This document shows positions 42,070 through 44,985 of a stretch of DNA of 64,000 nt, one piece after another. The number at the start of each line of letters is the position of its first letter. The stretch's first letter is position 1. The notes beneath the pieces were generated by a model. The model worked only from the letters and a program-made list of their open reading frames with translations. It did no database searches and was not told the DNA's origin. A program made the translations under genes and the position numbers. The stretch comes from Planctomycetota bacterium (GTDB lineage: Bacteria > Planctomycetota > Phycisphaerae > UBA1845 > UTPLA1). The stretch spans positions 124,001 through 188,000 of the forward strand of contig JACRIM010000017.1 in assembly GCA_016235815.1 (NCBI GenBank), written 5' to 3'.

Positions 42070-42405
42070 ATGAATACCGTCACCAAAAAAGACCTCATCG
42101 ACCGTATTTCAGACCGCACCGGCAATAAGCGGGTGGTTGTGAAGCGGATCATCCAGCACTTCCTCGACGACATTGTGGAGGAGCTTGGCAGAGGTAACCG
42201 CTTGGAATTCCGGGACTTCGGCGTCTTTGAGAGCAAGCTGCGCCAGGCCCGAACTGCTCAAAACCCCAAGACGCTCGAGCGTGTCGAGGTTCCCGAGAAG
42301 CGTACTGTGAAATTCAAGGTCGGCCGGGTCATGAAGATGAAGCTCGGCCTCGATGGTCACCCCGCGCCCGGAAGCCGGCCCGGCTCCCTGCCTACCGGAA
42401 CGTGA
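42070..42405 (+). CDS. HU/IHF family DNA-binding protein
   Basis: A 111-residue histone-like protein that bends DNA as a dimer. The HU fold is clear: TKKDLIDRIS opening, VVKRIIQHFLDDIVEELGRGNRLEFRDFGVFE, then the beta-arm with KTLERVEVPEKRTVKFKVGRVMK. The usual arm-tip Pro lies in the VEVPEKR element. A low-complexity tail of about 16 residues (APGSRPGSLPTGT) extends past the typical 90-95. The start is ATG 42070, with AGGGTG nine bases upstream. HU and IHF cannot be told apart here. Confidence 0.94.
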   Translation: MNTVTKKDLIDRISDRTGNKRVVVKRIIQHFLDDIVEELGRGNRLEFRDFGVFESKLRQARTAQNPKTLERVEVPEKRTVKFKVGRVMKMKLGLDGHPAPGSRPGSLPTGT

Positions 42406-42473
42406 TCACTACTTCATAAGTCCATCATCTGCGTGCGGTTACAGCCTGAACCCGTTCGCCCTGTCAAATCGCA

Positions 42474-42502
42474 TTGACACGCGTCCCGTTCGCCCTTATC
42501 AC
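42474..42502 (+). promoter_or_regulatory. Promoter of feoAB
   Basis: TTGACA at 42474-42479 (consensus -35) and TATCAC at 42497-42502, spaced by exactly 17 bases. Transcription would begin near 42510, inside the palindrome at 42505-42523 and about 37 bases before feoA. Confidence 0.6.
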
Positions 42503-42504
42503 TT

Positions 42505-42523
42505 ATTGAGACTCAGTCTCAAT
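42505..42523 (+). promoter_or_regulatory. Palindromic operator at the feoAB promoter (Fur-type candidate)
   Basis: ATTGAGACTCAGTCTCAAT is a perfect 9-1-9 inverted repeat placed on the expected transcription start. The TGAGACT/AGTCTCA arms resemble the TGAGAAT/ATTCTCA-type boxes of some Fur proteins. Iron-dependent repression is an inference from position and the genes it controls. Confidence 0.6.
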
Positions 42524-42546
42524 TACATCGTTCCTTGAGCGGTACA

Positions 42547-42795
42547 ATGCCGACCACTGTGATACACAAACAAGCCGTCTCTGACCTCCAGCCCGGCCAG
42601 CAGGGGAATATCGTGGCGGTGAGCGGCCCGGCCGAGATTCGCCATCGTCTACTCGAGATGGGTCTGACGCCGGGTACGCGCGTCGAGTTGATCCGCGTGG
42701 CGCCGATGGGCGACCCCGTGGAGATTCGCGTTCGCGGGTATCGCCTGAGCCTTCGCAAGTCCGAGGCGTCGGCCGTGCGAATAGACGCCGCTTGA
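42547..42795 (+). CDS. feoA: FeoA, SH3-like accessory protein of ferrous iron uptake
   Basis: An 82-residue FeoA: SDLQPGQQGNIVAV, then the conserved RHRLLEMGLTPGTRVELIRVAPMGDPVEIRVRGYRLSLRK block split over the SH3-like barrel. It works with FeoB at the inner membrane, perhaps by stimulating GTP hydrolysis. The start is ATG 42547; a longer frame from 42535 lacks a ribosome site. FeoB begins nine bases after the stop, so the two form an operon under the palindromic operator. Confidence 0.95.
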   Translation: MPTTVIHKQAVSDLQPGQQGNIVAVSGPAEIRHRLLEMGLTPGTRVELIRVAPMGDPVEIRVRGYRLSLRKSEASAVRIDAA

Positions 42796-42804
42796 TGGCC
42801 CGAC

Positions 42805-44985
42805 ATGGCCGACACCCAATCCGTTACCGCACCTCCGTCCCGCATCGCCATTGCGGGCAACCCCAATTCAGGCAAAACAACACTCTTTAACGCACTAACC
42901 GGTCTCCGCCAGAAGGTCGCCAATTATCCCGGCGTCACCGTCGAAAAGCGCGAAGGCGAAATCGCCGGTTTGAACATCACACTGCTCGATCTGCCCGGCA
43001 CCTACAGCCTGACGGCGCGCTCGCCCGATGAGCAGATTGCGCGCGATGTCATTCAAGGCCGGCTCGAAGGGGTGCCGCGCCCTGACGGTATTCTCATCGT
43101 CGTTGATGCCGCGAACCTCGAACGGAATCTCTATCTCGCCACGCAGATTCTCGACTTCGGCTGGCCCGTCGTCATCGCCTGCACGATGTCCGACCTTGCC
43201 GCCGAAAACGGATTGCACATTGACTACGCCCGCCTCTCAATGGAGCTTGGCGTGCCGGTGGTGCCGGTCGTGGCGTCGAAGGGCGTGGGTCTGGATGAGC
43301 TGCGCCACGCACTTACGCGATTGACGAAGCACGCCGAGCGTGCCCGACCATGGCCGCTGGAGCCGGCGTTTGAAGAAGCGGTGGAGCACGTGGCGACGTG
43401 TGTCAATCAATGCAATGCGCTGCCTCCTCACGCCACGCGGGCGGGGGCACTGCTGTGGCTTATGGATTTTCTCTCCGGCGAGCAGGGGAGCCGGTCGTCG
43501 GCCGAGCGGTTCCTTGCCAAGCTGCCCACGGGCTGTGCCCAGTCCATTCGGTCCGCGGCGGGTACTCTCGCTGCAAAGCATGGCGACGCTCCGGCCTCGG
43601 CCATCGAGGCCCGCTACCGCTGGATCTCCGAACTCACCCGTCGCGTCGTCACCGGTCCGAACGAGGCGGGCACCATCACCCGCTCCGATCGGCTCGACCG
43701 GCTGCTCACGCACAAGGTCTTCGGACTCGTCATCTTCGCGGCGGTCATGTTCGGTTTGTTCGCTTCGATCTTTTGGTGGGCCGAGCCGCTCATGGGGTTG
43801 ATCGAGTCGGCGCAGAACGCCGTAAGTGCGGGTGTCCGGCGTGTCATGCCCGATGGTCCATTGCAATCGCTTCTCACCGACGGACTCATCACCGGTGTCG
43901 GCGCCGTCGTAAGTTTCTTCCCGCAGATCTGCATACTCTTCTTCTGCCTTGGCGTGCTGGAGGACACGGGCTACATGGCGCGGGCCGCGTTCCTCATGGA
44001 TCGCCTCATGAGCCGCGTCGGGTTGCACGGCAAAAGCTTTATTCCACTGCTCTCCAGCTACGCATGCGCGATTCCCGGCATCCTGGCGACGCGCACGATT
44101 GAGAGCACGCGCGACCGATTCACGACGATCCTGATCGCGCCGTTGATGAGCTGCTCGGCGCGGCTGCCGGTGTATCTCATCGTGATCGGCGCGGTCTTTG
44201 GCGAGCGCACCATCGTGAAGGCCGGGCTGATGTTCGGCCTGTATGCGCTGGGGACGATCACCGCGCTGGTCATGGCGCTGGTTTTCAAGCGGACAATCTT
44301 CGCCGGACCTCGGCCGCCATTCATCATGGAACTGCCGCCCTATCGCCTGCCGAGGCTTCGCACGCTGATCTTGACGACGTGGGAGCGGAGCCGGTTGTTT
44401 CTCACCAATGCCGGGACGACGATCGTCGCGGTGTGCATCGTGCTGTGGGCGCTGACGTACTTCCCGCGCATGAGCGCCGCGCAGGGGGAGGCGGCCGTGA
44501 AGGCGTTGCCGGCCGCGCAGACCGAAGGACCCAGCCGCGCGGATGTGCTCGCGAGCGAGCAGCTTCGCCAGAGCTACATGGGCCGGCTGGGGCACGCGAT
44601 TGAGCCGGTGATGAAGCCGATCGGGCTTGATTGGCGGATGGGCGTCGGCATTCTGTCATCGTTCCTGGCGCGCGAGGTGTTCGTCGGGGCGATGGGCATA
44701 ACCTTTGCCGTCGGCGACCCCGAACAACACGGCGACACGCTGCGCGATCAGATGGCGGCGGCGACGTGGCCCGACGGGCGGCGGGTGCTGGGCGTTGCGG
44801 CGGCGTGCAGCCTGCTGGTGTTTTATGTGTTCGCGTGTCAGTGCATCAGCACACTGGCGGTCGTGCGCAAGGAGACAGGGTCTTGGCGGTGGCCGGCGTT
44901 TATGTTTGCGTATATGACCGTGCTGGCGTACGTGGCGGCGCTGTTGGTGTATCAAGTCGGCACGCGGATAATGGGCGGGGCTTGA
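42805..44985 (+). CDS. feoB: FeoB, ferrous iron transporter
   Basis: A 726-residue inner-membrane Fe2+ transporter with a cytosolic G-domain. G1 is GNPNSGKT (18-25), G2 around YPGVTVEKREG (41-51), G3 DLPG (62-65), and G4 is at 127-130, where the usual NxxD reads TMSD, with Thr in place of Asn. A helical GDI-like spacer follows to about residue 280. The membrane part has two Gate cores (LLSSYACAIPGILATRTI and LSSFLAREVFVGAMG). Full length for the family. The altered G4 residue may relax guanine specificity. Confidence 0.95.
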   Translation: MADTQSVTAPPSRIAIAGNPNSGKTTLFNALTGLRQKVANYPGVTVEKREGEIAGLNITLLDLPGTYSLTARSPDEQIARDVIQGRLEGVPRPDGILIVVDAANLERNLYLATQILDFGWPVVIACTMSDLAAENGLHIDYARLSMELGVPVVPVVASKGVGLDELRHALTRLTKHAERARPWPLEPAFEEAVEHVATCVNQCNALPPHATRAGALLWLMDFLSGEQGSRSSAERFLAKLPTGCAQSIRSAAGTLAAKHGDAPASAIEARYRWISELTRRVVTGPNEAGTITRSDRLDRLLTHKVFGLVIFAAVMFGLFASIFWWAEPLMGLIESAQNAVSAGVRRVMPDGPLQSLLTDGLITGVGAVVSFFPQICILFFCLGVLEDTGYMARAAFLMDRLMSRVGLHGKSFIPLLSSYACAIPGILATRTIESTRDRFTTILIAPLMSCSARLPVYLIVIGAVFGERTIVKAGLMFGLYALGTITALVMALVFKRTIFAGPRPPFIMELPPYRLPRLRTLILTTWERSRLFLTNAGTTIVAVCIVLWALTYFPRMSAAQGEAAVKALPAAQTEGPSRADVLASEQLRQSYMGRLGHAIEPVMKPIGLDWRMGVGILSSFLAREVFVGAMGITFAVGDPEQHGDTLRDQMAAATWPDGRRVLGVAAACSLLVFYVFACQCISTLAVVRKETGSWRWPAFMFAYMTVLAYVAALLVYQVGTRIMGGA

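Follow-up and report, generated by a model that had tools for sequence, protein, structure and literature searches.

Which regulator, if any, acts at the perfect inverted repeat that lies between the promoter elements and the first gene of a planctomycete feoAB operon? The preliminary description of this locus had reported a promoter with a perfect 19-base operator centred on the start site, and had suggested that the arms may define the iron-regulator motif of the lineage. Coordinates are given in Table 1 and, unless a locus is named, refer to the window, that is, the whole 64,000-nucleotide stretch of DNA that was analysed. FeoA scores under the NCBIfam FeoA equivalog cut-off (47 of 102 bits). 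The nearest named relatives of FeoB all come from planctomycete assemblies (PLA6, 65% identical over the best segment; PLA4, 53%; Phycisphaerae, 51-52%).

Table 1. Features of the feoAB locus and the Fur protein of the same genome
Feature	Coordinates	Strand	Evidence
HU/IHF-type DNA-binding protein gene, just 5' of the promoter	42070-42405		PF00216, E 3.9e-25
-35 element TTGACA of the feoAB promoter	42474..42479	+	sequence and family comparison
-10 element TATCAC of the feoAB promoter	42497..42502	+	4/6 matches to TATAAT; spacer 17; sequence and family comparison
Operator ATTGAGACTCAGTCTCAAT, proposed Fur box over the start site	42505..42523	.	sequence, recurrence, Fur co-occurrence
17-base core TTGAGACTCAGTCTCAA of the operator	42506-42522		
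feoA	42547..42795	+	ATG start taken, 82 residues; PF04023, E 1.1e-23
feoB, ferrous iron transporter, 726 residues	42805..44985	+	TIGR00437, 531 bits (cut-off 316); PF02421, E 1.6e-55
Fur protein of the same genome	L026, 3080-3604	-	PF01475, E 2.5e-30

The TTGACA/TATCAC pair with its 17-base spacer is present in the sequence as described, and the operator, read directly from the letters, is a perfect 9-1-9 inverted repeat that begins two bases 3' of TATCAC. The -10 hexamer itself is weak (4/6), and a stricter scanner that demands T at the last -10 position called no promoter in 42400-42830. We nevertheless adopted the promoter reading because the comparison of feo sites within the bacterial family backs it. 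At 12 of the 14 family feo sites, TTGAC occurs 32-37 bases 5' of the 17-base core, and each of those 12 has a -10-like hexamer after it that ends 3-8 bases before the core; the arrangement is absent from the feo sites of G009 and G003. The best -35/-10 pair scores 10/12 at 10 of the 14 sites, a value reached by about 1% of shuffles; since the pair of G003 lies inside and 3' of the motif, nine of these ten are well placed. The spacing at the family sites therefore puts the box over the start site, which is a usual layout for a repressor. At the locus itself, counting from the end of the -10 element at 42502, we take transcription to start at about 42509 (a rule of thumb). This position falls in the left arm, and the centre of the repeat is at 42514, about 5 bases further. 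Thus, the operator does overlap the likely start, but it is not exactly centred on it.

A symmetric stretch at such a position could be a chance palindrome, or a terminator or attenuator that works without any regulator. Apart from ATTGAGACTCAGTCTCAAT, the window has no perfect 9-1-9 repeat, and at least one perfect repeat of this kind turned up in 7 of 20 mononucleotide shuffles of the window. Symmetry alone is therefore not rare in 64 kb, and the case rests on the letters recurring. Allowing up to 3 mismatches, the 19-mer was found at four places in its own genome (none for the reversed control). The core TTGAGACTNAGTCTCAA occurs exactly in 16 of the 114 genomes of the order, 12 of which belong to the 17-genome family of the bacterium; with up to 2 mismatches, the family has 43 places and the control 7. 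Not just the symmetry of the repeat, then, but its letters are found again at orthologous promoters and upstream of a second iron gene. We rejected chance on the absence of the 19-mer (up to 3 mismatches) from all 100 window shuffles and on the 22 exact places of the core in the order against 0 for its reversed control. As for a terminator or attenuator, no terminator-like site was found around the feoAB promoter in a scan of the 42400-42830 region. To either explanation we assign next to no probability.

The places where the motif occurs point to iron. In its own genome, the four places are before feoAB, before a heme oxygenase gene (PF01126, E 1.9e-30), upstream of a gene whose product is a predicted lipoprotein of CbiX-like type (PF01903 at 20.9 bits, slightly below its cut-off of 22) and, last, in the stretch that separates a TetR-like gene from a pilin-like one (PF07963), the labels 'TetR-like' and 'lipoprotein' being our own reading. 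The 43 family places were sorted by coordinates, reading frames and tblastn. More than half of them (24/43) precede feoAB (13) or heme oxygenase (11), and the other main groups are CbiX-like (5), pilin-like (4) and Kelch (3) proteins. The remainder consists of two P-type ATPase sites (one genus), two near-identical loci (L044/L045, one genus) and three others (L017, L048 and a site that falls within a reading frame of L055). Overall, 36 of the 43 places lie before gene families that have sites in two or more genera, and 7 do not. Viewed from the genes, the box is present at 14 of 15 family feoB loci when up to 3 mismatches are allowed (the site of G015 has 3), and before 11 of 13 heme oxygenases at a distance of 73-435 bases 5' (none at G014 and G006). 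The single feoB locus without the box belongs to G010, a genome that has no PF01475 hit and in which feoA-feoB stands behind a DtxR-like gene. The box thus overlaps promoters of iron-uptake genes, and looking for it before other iron genes, as the preliminary description had proposed, led to the heme oxygenase of the same genome and to the feoAB and heme oxygenase copies of the family.

A Fur box is a palindrome with a 7-1-7 layout, and a form of this layout, TGAGACT-C-AGTCTCA, sits inside the perfect 9-1-9 repeat. The genome codes for one PF01475 protein, the Fur orthologue, and for one protein with a DtxR C-terminal domain. Across the order, PF01475 is found in 81 and FeoB_N in 104 of the 114 genomes. 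To compare the distribution of the motif with that of Fur, we retrieved every FeoB_N copy (128 in the 104 genomes) and, from 80 of the 81 PF01475 genomes, one Fur-family locus or more, the best always included; weaker second and third PF01475 hits were left out, as was a contig-end fragment (G064), counted as being without an orthologue. Each genome received one verdict, drawn from those feo copies whose upstream sequence extends to 400 bases or more (three shorter copies, L126, L272 and L296, were dropped, leaving 103 genomes), and a site counted as the motif if it had at most 3 mismatches and lay no more than 1200 bases from feoB. By our own estimate, which supposes equal base use, chance would put such a match into about 0.5% of random stretches of 1200 bases. 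Orthologues were defined by a cut-off of 120 bits, set after the scores were known, within a gap from 145.7 to 102.6 bits; the genome at its lower edge, G071, was counted as lacking an orthologue and has no motif at feo.

Of the 47 genomes with a Fur orthologue, 45 have the motif at feo, as against 4 of the 56 that lack one (Fisher p 9e-22, without correction for kinship). If no more than 2 mismatches are allowed, the counts are 36/47 and 3/56, and with up to 4 they are 46/47 and 6/56. In an earlier table of 55 genomes, the numbers with both, Fur only, motif only and neither were 35/2/2/16 when Fur was defined by E < 1e-23, and 35/1/2/17 when defined by orthology; that table used one feoB copy each, with full-length copies chosen by hand, and was repeated with all copies to remove the choice. 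Kinship was considered at the family and genus level only. Given in the same order, the counts per family are 14/0/0/1 (f1), 1/1/0/0 (f2), 1/0/0/0 (f3), 0/0/0/22 (f4), 9/0/2/2 (f5), 0/0/0/1 (f6), 0/0/0/1 (f7) and 20/1/2/25 (f8). When the f8 genera of uniform state are counted by themselves, the result is 14/1/1/11 (p 1e-5). The family also has three mixed genera. In each of g23 and g27, a single species combines Fur with the motif and its congeners have neither; g64 includes one species (G080) that has a 3-mismatch match without Fur. The four genomes with the motif at feo and no orthologue found (G054, G060, G080 and G083) are 77-91% complete and split into 590-1010 contigs, so that Fur may be absent from the assembly rather than from the organism. 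The two orthologue-bearing genomes without the motif are G017, whose best site has 4 mismatches, and G102, whose second feo copy comes with just 259 bases of upstream sequence. G004 and G016 (75% and 85% complete) have exact sites and no PF01475 hit; they also lack a feoB hit and thus fall outside the table. Hence, the proposal that the arms are the iron-regulator motif of the lineage is supported, as the motif follows the Fur orthologue across the order.

A metalloregulator of the DtxR/IdeR/MntR family might bind the repeat instead. Besides the protein with a DtxR C-terminal domain in the genome itself, dtxR-like genes lie near some feo copies in the order, and this family probably controls feo elsewhere. 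However, the domain is present in all 17 family genomes, including G010 with no motif at feo. Moreover, the motif occurs at none of the 22 feo copies with a dtxR-like hit and at 49 of the 103 others, where a hit means that tblastn with the G010 DtxR matched at any point of the sequence retrieved for the copy, the length of which differs between loci. DtxR as the binder was rejected: dtxR genes do not follow the motif, and the pattern expected of a DtxR/IdeR operator was not found. We regard this alternative as very unlikely. These copies represent a second kind of feo locus in the order, with a dtxR-like gene nearby and no Fur box (L028 of G010, L128-L131, L149, L152 and others); G020 has one feo copy of each kind.

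The binder could also be a Fur-family paralogue of the Zur or PerR type rather than the Fur orthologue. Such paralogues do exist in the order, as revealed by the tree, and a variant of the core, TTGCGACTNAGTCGCAA, resembles the Desulfovibrio Zur consensus given in PMC545781 at 10 of 14 positions, which 26 of 5000 palindromic shuffles reach. Against this, the only PF01475 protein of the genome is the orthologue, the targets of the box are iron genes, and genomes that have paralogues only (such as G067, G025, G050 and G053) are without the motif at feo. The paralogues were rejected as well: G067, which had looked like an exception in that its PF01475 hit is good yet the motif is missing, proved to hold paralogues only. 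The probability left to them is small, similar to that of DtxR.

The repeat is thus very likely the operator of the planctomycete Fur orthologue, judging from sequence comparisons. The best solved relatives of this 174-residue protein are 6d57 and 4ets, annotated as Ferric uptake regulation protein (E about 1e-24). In the alignment to 4raz, residues Lys15, Tyr56 and Arg57 of Magnetospirillum gryphiswaldense Fur (MgFur) are identical in the planctomycete protein. According to PMC4506495, Arg57 of MgFur reads a guanine, Tyr56 touches thymines and Lys15 lies in the minor groove. The protein scores far under the NCBIfam Fur equivalog cut-off (at best 78.6 vs 220 bits, with a Bacillus-type model); the name Fur therefore rests on the family, the tree and the targets. 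In the tree, which carries a long-branch warning, the Fur orthologues group together in a single clade that takes up 44 of the 71 rows (support 100/99) and is set apart from the remainder by a gap in scores as well.

How does the box relate to known ones? The classical Fur box of E. coli and Pseudomonas can be read as 7-1-7, TGATAAT-N-ATTATCA, and in that reading the layout is common to both. Its letters are not: the classical 19-mer equals the planctomycete box at 6 of 16 bases, which 3230 of 5000 shuffles reach, so that the GATAAT letters are not found here. Nor is the planctomycete box clearly closer than shuffles to the Pseudomonas co-crystal box (10 of 17; 595 of 5000 shuffles reach 10). 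A better likeness is the feoAB1 operator of M. gryphiswaldense, which, according to PMC4506495, is bound by Fur, stands before feoAB and is not of the GATAAT type. It equals the core at 12 of 17 bases (27 of 5000 palindromic shuffles do as well) and the TTGCGACT variant at 14 of 17. This operator of an alphaproteobacterium is an imperfect repeat with GCAA-type arms, whereas the planctomycete box is a perfect one; its binding was measured by footprint (PMC4506495), whereas Fur binding to the planctomycete box is a prediction. In Deltaproteobacteria, comparison of genomes revealed a lineage-specific box before feoAB, the dFUR-box WTGAAAATNATTTTCAW (PMC545781). It shares with the core a 17-base palindrome with one central base and 12 of 16 bases (37 of 5000 palindromic shuffles reach 12). 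Its inner arms are A-rich (GAAAAT), in contrast to GAGACT here, and according to PMC545781 it also stands before fur genes, where the planctomycete box was not found. The best match at the fur gene of this genome has 4 mismatches, and with up to 3 mismatches only one of 36 orthologue loci (L109) has the box; we therefore do not claim autoregulation of fur.

The variant core TTGCGACTNAGTCGCAA is found at the feo genes of five genomes (G098, G037, G046, G052 and G034; loci L156, L157, L160, L165 and L168). The Fur proteins of all five have proline in one loop column beside the DNA-contact lysine, a column occupied in 31 other Fur proteins by glutamate (22), alanine (6), proline (2) or threonine (1). 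Shared ancestry may explain this pairing, and the likeness to the Desulfovibrio Zur consensus counts against certainty for the variant.

Taken with known Fur biology, from which binding, metal dependence and repression are carried over, the box is very probably a planctomycete spelling of the Fur box, with the 7-1-7 layout; the motif, its promoter position, its recurrence before the same genes and its co-occurrence with Fur are computed from the genomes. With plentiful ferrous iron, a metal-loaded Fur dimer would sit on TTGAGACTNAGTCTCAA across the start site, blocking RNA polymerase and keeping feoAB off. When iron is scarce, Fur would lose its metal and leave the box, so that ferrous-iron uptake is made and, through the same box before heme oxygenase, recovery of iron from heme could be switched on. 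That Fur boxes may be lineage-specific is already known; the new part is the planctomycete spelling. No Fur box for Planctomycetota was found among the literature matches listed (titles and abstract starts of open-licence papers), and the motif letters gave an unrelated match only. 'Planctomycet' does not occur in the excerpt of PMC5343134, a regulon study of Proteobacteria.

The feo promoters of further families in the order also carry close forms of the box. In the phylum (392 genomes), the exact core occurs at 20 places in 17 genomes, its own included (control: one place in one genome). Of the 16 loci read outside its own genome (one further site, in G262, was left out), three stand, judged by eye, upstream of feo genes (L220 and, from a single genus, L223 and L224), and L219 has its site before the gene for a BFD-like ferredoxin (PF04324); the other 12 carry no gene assignment. 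The lineage using the box is therefore wider than the family. Among 40 FeoB loci taken from named genomes that span several phyla, some have nothing close to the box and others have related palindromes, e.g. TTGAAAATCATTTTCAG (L064), TTGAGAATGATTCTCAA (L088) and TTGATAATGATTATCGT (L089). We read this as a drift of Fur boxes, of which the present box is one local spelling.

A broader reading, to which as a whole we would give an even chance, is that TTGAGACT-N-AGTCTCAA may be a Fur box of much of Planctomycetota. As parts of this joint reading, the box would serve a compact iron regulon (feoAB, heme oxygenase, the CbiX-like predicted lipoprotein, Kelch and pilin-like proteins), control of feo would have been exchanged several times within the order between a Fur box and a dtxR-like gene beside feo, and a second spelling, TTGCGACT-N-AGTCGCAA, would accompany a proline in the loop with which Fur faces the DNA. 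A box spelled out in full and assigned to a single Fur clade would make iron regulons readable from these mostly uncultured genomes, and the order offers a natural experiment in how one operon changes its regulator.

The box also points to further candidate iron-linked proteins. The CbiX-like predicted lipoprotein stands behind it in five family genomes (L003, L018, L019, L043 and L047), about 14-36 bases 3'. Pilin-like proteins do so in four (L004, L020, L021 and L051), with the PF07963 N_methyl domain in L004. Finally, proteins alike by tblastn are found behind the box in two families of the order (L008, L011, L013 and L016). The one at L008 has Kelch repeats according to Pfam, and we consider all four candidate iron-regulated proteins.
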